From assembly GCA_021325435.1 (NCBI GenBank), contig JAJPHE010000075.1:1-35829 (forward strand): a stretch of 35,829 nucleotides of DNA, written 5' to 3'. This stretch comes from Actinomycetota bacterium (GTDB lineage Bacteria > Actinomycetota > Acidimicrobiia > Acidimicrobiales > JAJPHE01). Positions 1,981 through 35,829 of this stretch are shown in pieces. Within the stretch, counting starts at the first letter, position 1, and every line of letters begins with the position of its first letter. A program made the position numbers and the translations under genes. Under the pieces are notes generated by a model, which searched no databases, was not told where the DNA came from, and saw only the letters and a program-made list of their open reading frames with translations.

Positions 1981-3495
1981 ATGAGCCAGGCCGTCACCGT
2001 CGAACGTCATCGCCCGGACTGGTTGATCCTCGCCCTGCTGTGCGTGGCCCAGTTCATGGTCGTCCTCGACGTCTCGATCGTGAACGTCGCCCTGCCGTCG
2101 ATCCGCCACGAGCTCGGGTTCTCCCAGACCGGCCTCCAGTGGATCGTCAACGCCTACACCGTCTCCTTCGCCGGCTTCCTCCTGCTCGGAGGGCGGGCGG
2201 CCGACCTGTTCGGGCGGCGCCGGATCTTCGTGCTGGGCCTCGGGTTGTTCACCGCCGCCAGCCTGGCCGGCGGCCTGGCCCAGGACCAGACCACTCTCCT
2301 GGCCGCCCGGGTGGCCCAGGGCCTCGGCGGCGCGGTCCTCTCGCCAGCAACCCTCACCATCCTCACCACCACCTTCCGCGAGGGCCCGGCCCGCTCGCGG
2401 GCGCTCGGAGCCTGGAGCGCGGTGGCCGGCGCCGGGGGGGCGACCGGCGCCCTGCTCGGGGGCATCCTCACCGACGCCGTCAGCTGGCGATGGATCTTCT
2501 TCGTGAACGTCCCCATCGGGGTGTTGGCCATGGCGGCCGCCATGGCGGTGCTGGCCGAAAGCCGCAACGAGTCGATGTCACGCCACCTGGACGTCACCGG
2601 CTCCGTGCTGGTGACCGGGGGCCTGATGGCGCTGGTCTACGGCATCGTCAACACCGTCACCCACCCGTGGGGCTCGGTGACGACGGTTGCCACCCTCGGG
2701 GCCGCCGTGGTCCTGCTCGTCTGGTTCGTGGTGCACGAAGCCCGCTTCGCCCGGGCGCCGCTCATGCCCCTGCACCTGTTCCGCTCGCGTTCGGTCAGCG
2801 CCGCCAACCTGGTGATGTTCCTGGTCGGTGCGGCCATCTTCGCCAGCTGGTTCTTCCTGTCGATCTACATGCAGAACATCCTCGGCTACTCGCCGCTCAA
2901 GACGGGTATCGCCTTCCTCCCCCAGACGATTGGCATCATCCTCGGCGCCCAGATCAGCTCGCGCCTCATCGTCCGCTTCGGGCCCCGTCCCCTGCTCCTG
3001 ATCGGCCCACTGCTCTCCGCCCTCGGCCTGTTCCTCCTCGGCGGCCTCACCGCCCACGCCTCCTACTGGTCGGACCTGTTCGTCCCCAGCGTGCTGGTCA
3101 CCTTCGGCATGGGCCTCACCTTCACGCCCGTGGCTTTCGCCGCCACCTCGGGCGTGCCGCCGCACGAGGCGGGTCTGGCCTCTGGGGTGCTCAACACCAA
3201 CCGCCAGGTCGGGGGAGCCATCGGGCTGGCCGCCCTGGCCACGGTGGCGACCGACCGCACCCACGCCCTGCTGGCCACCGTCCCCGGCCATCCGGCCGGG
3301 GCCGCGGTGGCCGCCGCCCTCACTTCTGGTTACACCCGGGCCTTCCACGTGTCGGTCATCGCCGCCGCCCTCGCCGTGGCCGCCGCCGTCTTCGTTCCGG
3401 CCGTGCGCCGGCCGGCCCCGGAGGCCCCCGACGAGCGGCAGGCGCCGGTGCCGCCCGTCACCGCCCCGGCGGTGGCGTTGCCCGGCAGCGACTGA
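1981..3495 (+). CDS. DHA2-family MFS drug efflux transporter
   Basis: This 504-aa protein has the 14-helix architecture of the EmrB/QacA (DHA2) proton antiporters. Helix 1 carries the family motif in FMVVLDVSIVNVALPSI. GRRAADLFGRRRIF is the loop 2-3 motif A, and VAGAGGATGALLGGILTD is antiporter motif C. Helices continue to a Pro/Ala-rich cytoplasmic tail. The ATG at 1981 is preceded by GGGAGAGCC at proper spacing. The frame is open further upstream, but that stretch looks non-coding and has no ribosome site. It exports hydrophobic compounds; the substrate is unknown. No TetR or MarR regulator is adjacent. It converges on the carboxylase gene with a 9-bp gap. Confidence 0.93.
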   Translation: MSQAVTVERHRPDWLILALLCVAQFMVVLDVSIVNVALPSIRHELGFSQTGLQWIVNAYTVSFAGFLLLGGRAADLFGRRRIFVLGLGLFTAASLAGGLAQDQTTLLAARVAQGLGGAVLSPATLTILTTTFREGPARSRALGAWSAVAGAGGATGALLGGILTDAVSWRWIFFVNVPIGVLAMAAAMAVLAESRNESMSRHLDVTGSVLVTGGLMALVYGIVNTVTHPWGSVTTVATLGAAVVLLVWFVVHEARFARAPLMPLHLFRSRSVSAANLVMFLVGAAIFASWFFLSIYMQNILGYSPLKTGIAFLPQTIGIILGAQISSRLIVRFGPRPLLLIGPLLSALGLFLLGGLTAHASYWSDLFVPSVLVTFGMGLTFTPVAFAATSGVPPHEAGLASGVLNTNRQVGGAIGLAALATVATDRTHALLATVPGHPAGAAVAAALTSGYTRAFHVSVIAAALAVAAAVFVPAVRRPAPEAPDERQAPVPPVTAPAVALPGSD

Positions 3496-8352: not shown

Positions 8353-10620
8353 ATGTCTGTCTCGATCCTCGGCCATGCCGTCCACCGCAGCGAAGATCCC
8401 CGCTTCCTCAGAGGCGAAGCCCGCTACGTGGACGACATCGAGGTGGCCGGGGGGCTGGTCGCCTCGTTTGTCCGGTCCCATCACGCCCACGCCAGGATCG
8501 TGTCGATCGATGCCGACGCCGCCCGCCGGGCGCCCGGCGTCGTGGCGGTGTTCACCGCCGCCGACCTCGACCTGCCGCCGTCCCCGGCCGGGCGGCGGGC
8601 CGCCCTGGCCCGTCCCCGCCTCGCCGCCGGCGTGGTGCGCTACGTGGGCGAGCCCCTGGCGGTGGTGGTCGCCGAATCGGCGGCGGCGGCCGTCGACGCC
8701 CGCGAGCTGGTGGACGTCGACTACGAGCCGCTTCCGGCCGTCGTCGACCCGATCGCCGCCACCGAAGAGGGGGCCCCGCTCCTCTTCCCCGACCACGGCT
8801 CCAACGTGGTCTCCGACGGCGGCGCCGCCGACGAGGACCCGCTCGAGGGAGCAGACGTCGTGGTGAGGGCGAGGCTGGTCAACCAGCGGGTGGCCCCTGT
8901 CCCCCTCGAGCCCAACGCCGCCCTGGCCGTCCCCGAGCCCGGCGGAGGTCTCACCATCTACGCCAGCACCCAGTCCCCGTTCGGGGTCCGCCGCGAGGTT
9001 GCCTCCGCCCTGGGCCTCGAGGAGGAGGCGGTCCGGGTCGTCGCCCCGGACGTCGGGGGCGGCTTCGGCGCCAAGGGGGGCGCCTACCCGGAGCAGATCG
9101 TGGTGGCGGCCCTCGCCCATCGCCTGGGCCGTCCGGTTCGCTGGGCCGAGACCCGCTCCGAGAACCTCGTCGGCATGACCCACGGCCGGGCTCAGGTGCA
9201 AGACGTCGAGCTCGGCGCCCGCCGCGACGGCACCATCGTCGGGTTGCGGGCCCGCGCCCTCACCGACGTCGGGGCCTATTCGTGGAGGGGCACGTTCCTG
9301 CCCGGAGTCACCCGGGTAATGGCCTCGGGCGTCTACCGCATCCCCCGCATCGCCTTCCGGCCGATGGCGGTGGTCACCAACACCACGCCCACCGGCCCTT
9401 ACCGGGGGGCCGGTCGCCCCGAGGCGGCAGCCCTGCTCGAGCGGTCGATGGACCTCCTGGCCGCCGAGCTCGGAATGGACCCGGTGGAGATCCGCCGGCG
9501 CAACTTCATCTCGCCCGACCAGTTCCCCTACCAGTCACCCACCGGCGCGTCCTATGACAGCGGCGACTACGCCAAGGCCCTGGACCGGGCCCTCGAGCTG
9601 GTCGGCTACCAAGAGCTGCGGGCCGAGCAGCGCGCCCGGGTGGATGCGGGATCCCCCCGCCTGCTCGGCATCGGGCTCAGCTGCTACGCCGAGATCAGCG
9701 GCGTGGGGAGCGAGTACGGCTCGGTCGCCGTCGCCCCCGACGGATCGGTGACCGTCGTAACCGGCTCCTCTCCGCACGGCCAGGGCCACGAGACGGCCTT
9801 CGCCCAGATCGCCGCGTCCGTGCTCGGAGTGGACTTCGCACGGGTGCGGGTTGTGCACTCCGACACCGGTACCGTGCCCCGCGGCGTCGGGACGTTCGGA
9901 TCGCGCTCGGGCCAGCTCGGCGGCAGCGCCGTGATGGGAGCGGGGGACGCCGTCCTCGCCCGGGCCCGCGAGCTGGCCGCCGACCTGCTGGAGGCGAGCG
10001 TCGATGACATCGTGCAGCTCGAGGGAGGTCGCTTCGGCGTGGCCGGTGTGCCCGCCCGCGCCCTCGACTGGGCCGACCTCGCCGGCGCCGGCGAGGAGGC
10101 CGGCACTCCGCTGCGGTCCGAGTTCGACTTCGAGCAGGAGCCGACCTTCCCCTTCGGCGCCCACGTGGCCGTGGTCGAGGTCGACATCGAAACCGGGCTG
10201 GTCGACCTCCTCCGCTTCGTCGCCGTCGACGACTGCGGCAACCTCATCAACCCGATGATCGTCGAGGGCCAGATCCACGGAGGACTGGCCCAGGGGGTGG
10301 CCCAGGCCCTGTTCGAGGCCGTCTCCTACGACGCCGACGGCAACCCGCTCACCACCACGCTCGTCGACTACCTCGTCCCGTCGGCGGCCGACCTCCCCTC
10401 CTGGGAGACCGCCCACACCGTCACCCCCACCCCCCGCAATCCGCTGGGCGCCAAAGGGGTGGGGGAGTCCGGCACCACCGGGTCGACCCCGGCGGTGCAG
10501 AACGCCGTCATCGACGCCCTGAGCCCGTTCGGCGCCAAGCATCTCGACATGCCGCTCACGCCCGAGCGGGTGTGGGATGCGATTCAAGCCGGCCGGCCAT
10601 CTCCAGCACCTCGGCGCTGA
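8353..10620 (+). CDS. xanthine dehydrogenase-family molybdopterin-binding large subunit (CoxL form II-like)
   Basis: This 755-aa protein is the full-length large subunit of a molybdenum hydroxylase. Visible signatures are [17 protein letters not shown] at the N-terminus, GGGFGAKGG for the molybdenum cofactor, [12 protein letters not shown], and [18 protein letters not shown] with the catalytic glutamate. The active-site loop reads [10 protein letters not shown], the AYRGAGR-type of 'form II' CoxL-like proteins, not the AYxCSFR of true CO dehydrogenase. It should hydroxylate an aldehyde, N-heterocycle or similar substrate. The FAD (medium) and 2Fe-2S (small) subunits that normally sit beside it are absent here. 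Its last 65 bp overlap the 3' end of clpP on the other strand. Confidence 0.9.
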
Positions 10621-11230
10621 CCCCCCGACGGGGGGCGATCACCTCGTCGATCAGCCCGTACTCACGGGCCTCCTGGGCGGTCATGAAGTAGTCGCGGTCG
10701 ATGTCCTTCTCCACCTGCTCGACCGGCCGGCCGGAGTGGAAGGCGATGATCTCGGCCATGCGGCGGGTGGTCGCCATCACCTCGCGCAGATGGATCTCCA
10801 TGTCGCGGGGCGCGCCTCGAGCCCCGGCCGAGCCCTGGTGGATCATGATCTTGGCGCTGGGCAGGGCGAGACGCTTGCCGGGCGCACCTCCGGCGAGGAT
10901 CATGGCGGCGGCCGACATCCCCATGCCCACGCAGATGGTGGAGACCTCCGGCCTCACGTGCTGCATGACGTCGTAGATGGCCATGCCGGCGTAGGCCAGC
11001 CCGCCGGGGGAGTTGATGTAGAGGAAGATGTCCTTGTCGGGGTCCTCGGCCTCGAGGTGGAGGATCTCGGCCACGATCAGGTTGGCGATCTGATCGTCGA
11101 CCTCCTGGCCCAGGAAGACGATCCTGTTCCGCAGCAGGAGCGAATAGATGTCGAAGGCCCGGTCGCCCCGGGCCGACTGCTCCAGGACGGTGGGGATCAC
11201 CGAGGCCAGAGGTGAGGTGGCGACGTCCAC
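10556..11230 (-). CDS. clpP: ATP-dependent Clp protease proteolytic subunit ClpP
   Basis: This 224-aa serine peptidase has the intact catalytic triad: Ser106 in [11 protein letters not shown], His131 in KIMIHQ, and Asp180 in [26 protein letters not shown] is the S14 strand/helix signature. It forms a tetradecameric chamber and needs a Clp ATPase to unfold substrates; none is encoded here, nor is trigger factor or clpX. The start chosen is the GTG at 11230, preceded by GGAGGAACGCA. A longer frame reaches an ATG at 11275 but enters the repeat array and has no better ribosome site. It is monocistronic and diverges from the XRE/inactive-ClpP operon. Confidence 0.93.
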
Positions 11231-11250
11231 TGCGTTCCTCCAAATTTTCT

Positions 11251-11362
11251 CGTTATCTCGTTTACGCGATACCATAGACGAGATATCACCACCGGGATAT
11301 CGTCATCGGGATAGCGCTGCCGGGATGTCGTCGACAGGATCGCGGCGGGGCTATCGTGAGTT
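11251..11362. repeat. eight-copy 14-bp phased direct repeat between clpP and the XRE operon
   Basis: Degenerate 14-mers start exactly every 14 bp at 11251, 11265, 11279, 11293, 11307, 11321, 11335 and 11349. The best copy is CGGGATATCGTCAT at 11293. Positions 5-6 (AT) are identical in all eight copies, position 9 is C in seven, and positions 1-2 are CG in six. The array begins 20 bp upstream of the clpP GTG and ends 66 bp before the XRE ATG, so it fills the divergent promoter region. It could be a row of operator half-sites for the XRE protein, or an old minisatellite. The copy count and period are seen directly; the role is inference. Confidence 0.75.
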
Positions 11363-11428
11363 TTTTCGCGGCTCGCCGAGCCCCGCTGTGAGCATTTCCG
11401 CTATCAGCACCGCCGGGAGACACCAGAG

Positions 11429-11683
11429 ATGAGCCCCCGTAAGCACAAGCCGCTCTTCCCCGGCTTCGACGACGAGACCTCGTGGCGGACCCGCGAGGTG
11501 ATCAGCGCCCTGGCCATGCGCCGCCAGGAGCTCGGGCTCTCCCAGACGGAGGTCGCCGCCCGCATGGGGACCTCCCAGTCGACCGTCGCCCGCCTCGAGG
11601 CCGACGCCATGGACGTGAGGTTCTCCACCCTGCAGCGCTACGCCGCCGCCATCGGCAGCAGCATCGAGTGGGAGCTTCGGTGA
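11429..11683 (+). CDS. XRE-family helix-turn-helix transcriptional regulator
   Basis: This 84-aa protein is essentially one HTH domain: MRRQELGLSQTEVAARMG, then TSQSTVARLEADAMD as recognition helix, then FSTLQRYAAAIG. No ligand or toxin-binding domain is attached. ATG at 11429 follows GGGAGACACCAGAG. Its stop overlaps the next start as GTGA, so it is translationally coupled to the ClpP-like protein. By position it most likely binds the 14-bp array upstream and controls clpP, its own operon, or both. It could also be the antitoxin-like half of a pair, but the partner is a ClpP fold, not a known toxin. Confidence 0.9.
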   Translation: MSPRKHKPLFPGFDDETSWRTREVISALAMRRQELGLSQTEVAARMGTSQSTVARLEADAMDVRFSTLQRYAAAIGSSIEWELR

Positions 11684-12393
11684 CCCCGCCCCAGCCGCCG
11701 CCCGGGTTCCGGCCGGAGATCAGCCCGCTTCCGGGGTCCTCGCCCCGCTGGCCCCTCGGGCGGCCGGTCCGGCCGCCGGCGCCGGAGCCGCTGCCCACCG
11801 GCCTCGAGTGGGGGGACTGGGTCCGGGCTCGCATGTTCGGTCAGCGCACCGTGTTCGTCAGCGGGGCCCTCGACGACCGGGTGGCCGGCGACGCCGTCGC
11901 CCAGCTGATGACCCTCGACGCCACGGGCGACGACGCGGTCGAGCTGTACCTCGACAGCCCCGGGGGCAGCCTCGAGGCCGCCTTCTCGGTGATGGACACC
12001 ATCGACCTGTTGGGGGTGCCGGTCCACACCACCTGCCTCGGTAGGGCCGAGGGGCCGGCTGTCGGTGTGCTCGCCGTGGGCGAGCGTCGGCGCATCGCCG
12101 CTCACGCCCGGTTGCGCCTGTGCGAGCCGAAGCTGGAGATCGCGGCGCGCGCCGCCGACCTGGGCCAGGTCGTGGCCCACCACCGATCCCAGCTCCACCG
12201 TTTCCAGGACCGGCTGGCCGCCGCCTCCCGCAAGTCGGCGGACGACATCGCCGAGGACATGCGGGCCGGCCGGTACCTGTCCGCCTCCGAGGCGGTGGCC
12301 TACGGGCTGGCCGACGAGATGATGACCCCCGACGCCCGCATCGTCTCCCTCGGCCGTTCCCCTCGGCCGTTCGGTTTCGGGCCGTCGCGCTAG
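11680..12393 (+). CDS. ClpP-fold protein with all three catalytic residues lost (pseudo-peptidase)
   Basis: This 237-aa protein has a Pro-rich N-terminal extension of about 40 residues, then a ClpP fold: RTVFVSGALDDRVA, LYLDSPGGSLEAAFSVMD, and YLSASEAVAYGLADEM, each matching a segment of the neighbouring ClpP. Aligned with that ClpP, the nucleophile Ser becomes Gly125 (CLGRAEGPAVG), the His becomes Cys148 (RLRLCEP) and the Asp becomes Gly197 (RAGRYLS). It should therefore assemble or bind like ClpP but not cleave, similar in principle to plastid/cyanobacterial ClpR. GTG start at 11680 overlaps the XRE stop. It could mix into ClpP rings or act as an adaptor; that is inference. Confidence 0.88.
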   Translation: MTPPQPPPGFRPEISPLPGSSPRWPLGRPVRPPAPEPLPTGLEWGDWVRARMFGQRTVFVSGALDDRVAGDAVAQLMTLDATGDDAVELYLDSPGGSLEAAFSVMDTIDLLGVPVHTTCLGRAEGPAVGVLAVGERRRIAAHARLRLCEPKLEIAARAADLGQVVAHHRSQLHRFQDRLAAASRKSADDIAEDMRAGRYLSASEAVAYGLADEMMTPDARIVSLGRSPRPFGFGPSR

Positions 12394-30355: not shown

Positions 30356-30442
30356 TGGTTACCGCGTCCTTTCGACATAAGTCGGTTGCAGTAGTGCACC
30401 TAACCGACCGGGGGGCGGCGGAAACCGAACCGACGGTGGCCC

Positions 30443-30517
30443 ATGTCACAGCGGCCACCGGCCGCCAATGTCACAGCGGCCGCCGGCCGCCAATGTCACA
30501 GCGGCCACGGGCCGCCG
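30443..30517. repeat. three tandem 25-bp repeats upstream of the DUF72 gene
   Basis: Copies start at 30443, 30468 and 30493 and each begins ATGTCACAGCGGCC. Copies 1 and 2 differ at one base; copy 3 differs at a few in its second half. Each contains TGTCACAG, the reverse complement of CTGTGACA in the palindrome at 16159. The array lies in the divergent gap between the CsbD-like and DUF72 genes. A 25-bp period without spacers is not a CRISPR. Confidence 0.7.
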
Positions 30518-34795: not shown

Positions 34796-35829
34796 TCAAC
34801 AGGCGTAGTCCCCGTCCCACGTGGTCGGGGCGTACTGCACCAGCCACGTCTGGCCCGAGGTGAAGGCCTTGGTGGGGGAGCAGAACGACGGGGCGTCGGC
34901 CACGGTCGTGGCGCCGGTCTGCCACATGGGCACGTCCGGGCTGTAGGTGCCCCCCGTGATCTGGCCCCACTGGTAGGCGGTCGAGTAGACGCCGGGCTGC
35001 ACGCCGAGGGCGGTGAGGGCGGCGATGGCCCCGGCGATCAGCTGCGAGTTGGCGGCGGTGTCGGTCGACCACAGCGGGTTCTGGCCGCCGGTCTCGATGT
35101 CGAGCCACCACATCGACGATTTGATCCCGAGGCCGCTGGCGTAGTCGTAGGAGTACACCGCGGCGTTGTAGCCGTAGTTGTAGGCCTGGCAGGTGGAGTC
35201 GGTGGTGACGCACTGGCCGGCCGGTCCGGTGAGTCCCTGCGAGGACGTCGACGGAGTCGGCGAGTTCAGGTTGATGTACAGGGTGAGCCCGGCGGGGGCG
35301 CCCCACGCCGCCTCGGACGTGAGGCACGGGTTCTGGGTGAACGCCTCGCCGTTGTTCACCCCGACCACGGCGACCGAGTACGGCGACGGCGGGTAGGTCT
35401 GGTTGCACTGGGGCCAGGAGATGTCGTAGCCGGTCGTGCCCGGTGTGTAGGGATCCAGGCTGTTGGCGGTGGCGATGGCCACGATGGGCGCCGGCAGGGT
35501 CTTGCCCCCCAGTGAGCCGTGGTACTTGGCGTCGCCGAAGTTGAAGACGCCACCGTCCGCCGCCGCCAGCCAGTAGCCGCCGCCCTCGGTGGGGGCGGCG
35601 ATGCTTACGACGGGCGAGGCCAGGGTGGTCCCTCCCATCGACCCGTAGAACTTGGCGTCGCCGAAGTTGAAGATGCCGCCGTCGGAGGCCGCCAGCCAGT
35701 AGCCGCCCGAATCGGGGGTGGGGGCCATGCCGACGATGGGCTTGTTGAGGCGGATGGCGCCGGTGGAGCCGTGGAAGGTGGCGTCGCCGAAGGTGAAGAT
35801 GCCGCCGTCGGAGGCCACCAGCCAGTAGC
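34796..35829 (-). CDS. secreted repeat protein with C-terminal GH25-like domain (5' part outside the window)
   Basis: The visible 344 residues begin inside a 42-residue repeat of the form ASDGGIFxFGDAxFxGSxG...GYWLA, two and a half copies (126 bp period). A glycosidase-like domain then follows: TGYDISWPQCNQ, YSVAVVGVNNGEAFTQNPCL, WWLDIETGGQ, LGVQPGVYSTAYQWGQI and TWLVQYAPTTWDGDYAC. The D-I-S start and the IET strand resemble GH25/DUF1906-type TIM barrels that cut or bind cell-wall glycans. Cysteines suggest an extracytoplasmic protein. The frame is open to the window edge (last codons read GYWLV), so the true start and signal peptide are beyond it. Such repeats are frequent in Acidimicrobiia. 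Confidence 0.8.
   Translation of the reverse strand, partial: YWLVASDGGIFTFGDATFHGSTGAIRLNKPIVGMAPTPDSGGYWLAASDGGIFNFGDAKFYGSMGGTTLASPVVSIAAPTEGGGYWLAAADGGVFNFGDAKYHGSLGGKTLPAPIVAIATANSLDPYTPGTTGYDISWPQCNQTYPPSPYSVAVVGVNNGEAFTQNPCLTSEAAWGAPAGLTLYINLNSPTPSTSSQGLTGPAGQCVTTDSTCQAYNYGYNAAVYSYDYASGLGIKSSMWWLDIETGGQNPLWSTDTAANSQLIAGAIAALTALGVQPGVYSTAYQWGQITGGTYSPDVPMWQTGATTVADAPSFCSPTKAFTSGQTWLVQYAPTTWDGDYAC

Follow-up and report, generated by a model that had tools for sequence, protein, structure and literature searches.

The promoter region between a clpP gene and a divergently transcribed gene for an XRE-family regulator (xre) contains, in the 35,829 nucleotides of DNA that were analysed as a whole (the window), an array of eight 14-bp units at 11251–11362. 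Based on comparison with the homologous promoters of relatives, we propose that this array is probably the autoregulatory operator of XRE (11429–11683), expanded into a graded and probably cooperative row. The genes concerned are as follows.

clpP, 10556–11230, minus strand: ClpP with intact Ser-His-Asp (PF00574, 3e-74), the catalytic residues being conserved in orthologues.
clpP start, GTG at 11230–11228 with GGAGG at 11237–11241, minus strand: probable, read from the sequence.
xre, 11429–11683, plus strand: 84-aa HTH_3 regulator, HipB/HigA-like (PF01381, 2.6e-13).
clpR, 11680–12393, plus strand: ClpP-like paralogue (PF00574, 1.5e-29), whose GTG start shares bases with the xre stop (GTGA).

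At their 3′ ends, clpP and a convergent xanthine-dehydrogenase-like gene (8353–10620) overlap (10556–10620). Tandem repeats also lie in the window at 30439–30516 (25 bp, 3.1 copies) and at 35517–35829 (126 bp, 2.5 copies, cut off by the end of the window).

An earlier note on this DNA had described eight units at exact 14-bp steps, with AT at positions 5–6 of all eight and C at position 9 of seven, and this description was borne out. The units start at 11251, 11265, 11279, 11293, 11307, 11321, 11335 and 11349, and read, in order, CGTTATCTCGTTTA, CGCGATACCATAGA, CGAGATATCACCAC, CGGGATATCGTCAT, CGGGATAGCGCTGC, CGGGATGTCGTCGA, CAGGATCGCGGCGG and GGCTATCGTGAGTT. Seven of the eight units also have C at position 1, seven have G at position 2, and six have G at position 10 (column counts C7 G7 N G6 A8 T8 N N C7 G6), giving a near-palindromic core, CG-NN-AT-NN-CG; unit 1, and weakly unit 8, is oriented opposite to units 2–6. 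The autocorrelation of the array was 0.58 at lag 14, 0.56 at lag 28 and 0.53 at lag 42, whereas shuffled sequences averaged 0.25 (sd 0.046). The lag-14 value, which had been suggested as a check, was matched in none of 5000 dinucleotide shuffles, also when any lag from 8 to 30 was permitted, and the array has the strongest 14-bp phase anywhere in the window. Among units 2–7, identity was 0.87 at the core (recognition) bases and 0.34 at the other positions, the core columns having been picked after the array had been seen. This bears on the second proposal of the earlier note, a phase-variable promoter element, which we take as a tandem repeat whose slippage would change copy number and thereby expression. 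Head-to-tail 14-bp units within a promoter are what such an element would look like; however, units 2–7 share only the recognition bases, their spacers differ, whereas the four-unit pattern scan described below turned up exact tandem repeats elsewhere in the order, and no copy-number variants were seen. Because the spacers have diverged, we consider phase variation highly improbable.

To grade the units, we used a half-site matrix built from the relatives, with the window left out.

Unit 1, 11251–11264, minus strand: inverted half-site TATCTC (11254–11259), left arm of the core dyad; score 17.4, rank 2 in the window.
Unit 2, 11265–11278, plus strand: direct half-site GCGATA (11266–11271), right arm of the core dyad; score 15.1.
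Unit 3, 11279–11292, plus strand: direct half-site GAGATA, counterpart of the relatives' +28 half-site; score 17.5, best in the window.
Unit 4, 11293–11306, plus strand: direct half-site GGGATA, medium; score 9.5, rank 6; found in no relative examined.
Unit 5, 11307–11320, plus strand: direct half-site GGGATA, medium; score 10.0, rank 5.
Unit 6, 11321–11334, plus strand: weak direct half-site GGGATG; score 1.6, above the window's 99th percentile.
Unit 7, 11335–11348, no strand assigned: weak, AGGATC / GATCGC, with no clear orientation; score 1.2.
Unit 8, 11349–11362, minus strand: weak inverted half-site TATCGT; inverted score 6.0, above the 99.9th percentile.

Units 3, 1 and 2 are thus the top three places in the 35.8 kb, with units 5 and 4 ranking fifth and sixth; we class units 1–3 as strong, 4–5 as medium and 6–8 as weak. 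Because the scores are high for units 1–3 and fall along units 4–8, the array would consist of an ancestral operator (units 1–3) and a graded extension (units 4–8). The dyad formed by units 1–2 (11254–11271, TATCTC-N6-GCGATA) is the sole exact match to TATCNC-N6-GNGATA in the genome, which fits a local autoregulator. A global regulon was considered and rejected, as the exact dyad occurs only this once and places with one mismatch (7) are scarcely more numerous than in a reversed control (5).

Orthologues of XRE, 50–66% identical, are found in Acidimicrobiia as well as in Nonomuraea, Geodermatophilus, Nocardia and others; nearly all relatives have the ClpP-like gene downstream of the XRE gene, and most Acidimicrobiia-type loci have the divergent clpP upstream. 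The dyad TATCTC-N6-GAGATA is present in the same promoter of 76 of the 89 distinct XRE-orthologue loci (at a threshold of at least 11/14 matches, the in-gene control reaching a maximum of 10/14), and several of the loci without it carry a TATAGC variant with unchanged spacing. With the first AT of the dyad set at 0 and the second at 14, 47% of loci have a further AT at −14 and 62% have one at +28, against an off-grid background of 2.2% in the leader; nearly all other flanking offsets remain at or below 14%, and peaks at −2 and +16 are due to overlapping GATATC. A start codon as the source of the +28 signal was rejected, as 65% of loci retain the AT once those with a start codon near +28 are removed. 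Most −14 sites resemble TATC and most +28 sites GATA, so that each arm of the dyad is repeated head-to-tail, the outer half-sites sharing the orientation of the adjacent inner one. In loci with the outer AT, G is enriched at −3 and +25 (Fisher p 0.0003 and 0.0005, only indicative since the sequences are related), as would be expected if neighbouring units form ATNNC-N6-GNNAT pairs. Phased units at the homologous promoter, for which the earlier note had suggested looking, are thus present in relatives, mostly as rows of three or four: contiguous AT units number two in 11 loci, three in 44 and four in 20, and eight in the window only. The closest family members sampled, from two other genera, have three to four. 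When 397 genomes of the order were searched for a four-unit pattern and 395 of the class for a five-unit one, the window genome was the only one with a row at the XRE locus; no other match fell on an XRE-orthologue contig stretch, and most were exact or nearly exact tandem repeats. Among the genomes sampled, the expansion by five half-sites is restricted to the window lineage. These promoters provide a natural series of 2, 3, 4 and 8 half-sites at one conserved position, which would allow the effect of homotypic array length on HipB/HigA-like autoregulation to be measured.

As the relatives manage with two to four units, scores drop from 17 to about 1–6 along the array and the extra units sit in the presumed xre leader, one may ask whether only the ancestral units 1–3 are functional, units 4–8 being a tandem duplication that has partly decayed and plays no part in regulation. 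Drift, however, should decay cores and spacers alike, which is not the pattern of core and spacer identity given above for units 2–7; moreover, AT lies on the 14-bp grid in all five extra units (4–8), against an off-grid background of 2.2%. We regard this reading as unlikely. An action at the RNA level, in which the leader units would pair mutually into a structured 5′ UTR or attenuator, appears more doubtful still. The xre leader folds better than its shuffles (z −2.57), and just past unit 8 (11340–11366) comes a weak terminator-like stem with a run of six T behind it; yet the fold is modest and follows from the near-palindromic cores, an Rfam search gave no family match, and the strict 14-bp phase, common to relatives with short or absent leaders, is a signature of DNA binding.

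In the autoregulatory operator that we favour, an XRE dimer would bind the ancestral dyad (units 1–2), as HipB binds TATCC-N8-GGATA. TACCAT at 11270–11275, in unit 2, is the likely −10 element of xre, where relatives show TANCRT; a sigma-70 consensus scan found no promoter and gave the −10 boxes no support, such a scan not being decisive in a high-GC actinobacterium. Because units 1–2 cover this presumed −10, XRE binding should repress xre–clpR, and clpP would probably be affected too, because its start lies about 25 bp to the left of the dyad. In relatives, one half-site would have been added on one or both sides of the dyad at exactly 14 bp, and in the window lineage the xre-proximal arm would have been lengthened by five half-sites of falling strength. 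The added half-sites would let further dimers settle next to one another in 14-bp steps, so that the level of XRE would be read out cooperatively and the response would become graded or steeper; in the xre leader, the row may also form a roadblock. If dimers occupied alternate pairs, as the HipB precedent suggests, their spacing would be 28 bp. The bound proteins may also wind around the DNA as a spiral, since 14 bp corresponds to 1.33 turns and three units (42 bp) to four turns. A counterpoint is that a dimer of the HipB type calls for half-sites in inverted orientation, whereas units 2–6 run head-to-tail; such units could pair only thanks to their near-palindromic core, and in the matrix the unfavoured orientation has the lower score. 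Units 6–8 are weak and could be decaying relics. The operator part of the cooperative row for the XRE protein that the earlier note envisaged is therefore well supported by comparative genomics: across Actinobacteria, the operator accompanies the XRE gene, whose product is of the HipB/HigA type that reads TATC/GATA. The cooperativity itself we infer. More speculatively, and in our opinion rather improbably, each near-palindromic unit might serve a dimer on either side, so that the row would adopt two mutually exclusive 28-bp registers or a head-to-tail filament with three protomers to every four turns; in that case, the cooperativity, or the counting, of a toxin-less, redeployed antitoxin-type regulator controlling an accessory Clp core with an inactive subunit would depend on how long the array is.

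XRE is grouped here with the HipB/HigA-type regulators, which recognise TATC/GATA. Its best sequence match in the PDB is HigA3 of Mycobacterium tuberculosis, and the structure model (pLDDT 84) has HipB, C-proteins, HigA2 and ClgR of C. glutamicum among its fold matches, with HipB chains among the top ones; a comparison with HipB by hhalign gave 92% over the HTH. The matches to HicB3, C-proteins and POU domains were set aside as reflecting the common HTH fold. In the ClpP-like paralogue, the catalytic Ser is Gly in 104 of 104 aligned orthologues and the His is replaced in all orthologues aligning there, whereas the divergent ClpP keeps Ser and His; judged by these residues, the paralogue is a ClpR-like inactive subunit, co-encoded with the XRE gene across Actinobacteria. 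Two more clpP copies lie on other contigs of the genome, so the pair at the array looks accessory. A search of the accessible literature for inactive ClpP in Actinobacteria gave no match. These features point to a widespread, apparently undescribed actinobacterial operon in which a HipB/HigA-like regulator would control an accessory ClpP and a catalytically dead ClpP paralogue; the conserved, inactive ClpP subunit, placed under a regulator of antitoxin-like type, merits separate study.

Homotypic rows of short sites with a fixed step, varying copy number and cooperative filling are familiar from the met boxes of MetJ and the hexamer arrays of Fur, which differ from the present array in protein fold and in step. 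A search of the accessible literature for 14-bp direct-repeat HTH operators gave no match. With ClgR and PopR, XRE shares membership of the XRE family and a place beside clp genes in actinomycetes; in Streptomyces, an accessory clpP pair is under its own regulator, PopR (PMC9765437). ClgR and PopR, however, are activators of clpP genes, whereas the operator here is TATCTC-N6-GAGATA over the promoter, a position that suggests repression. The ClgR motif, CGC-N5-GCG (PMC3613350), had no match in 11228–11428, and a ClgR-type promoter site at the array was rejected on this ground.

The resemblance to HigA3, the closest sequence match in the PDB, extends to the operator: HigA3 binds an oligonucleotide of its own −10 box containing CGAGATATAAC, and its operator is a −10 box containing CGAGATATA (PMC7340258). 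No HigB toxin was found beside xre within the window, whereas at one more distant locus (L111, from a MAG titled Bauldia sp.) a HigB/RelE-like frame, seen by eye at 2466–2865, precedes an XRE relative (3001–3228) that carries a perfect TATCTC-N6-GAGATA; this arrangement suggests a toxin–antitoxin ancestry.

The closest parallel in geometry is E. coli HipB, which binds TATCC-N8-GGATA cooperatively at four operators (PMC3376134) and whose sites, when measured, fall into two runs, each with four half-sites whose AT steps keep to an exact 14-bp grid. The half-site here is TATCTC (the consensus of the relatives) and not the TATCC of HipB, one good dyad is followed by head-to-tail half-sites where HipB has repeated dyads, and the partners are clpP and the inactive ClpP paralogue in place of a HipA kinase. 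Nevertheless, both systems have an 18-bp TATC...GATA dyad with 14 bp from AT to AT, keep the half-sites of neighbouring dyads on the 14-bp grid, and employ a small HTH_3 protein of similar fold.
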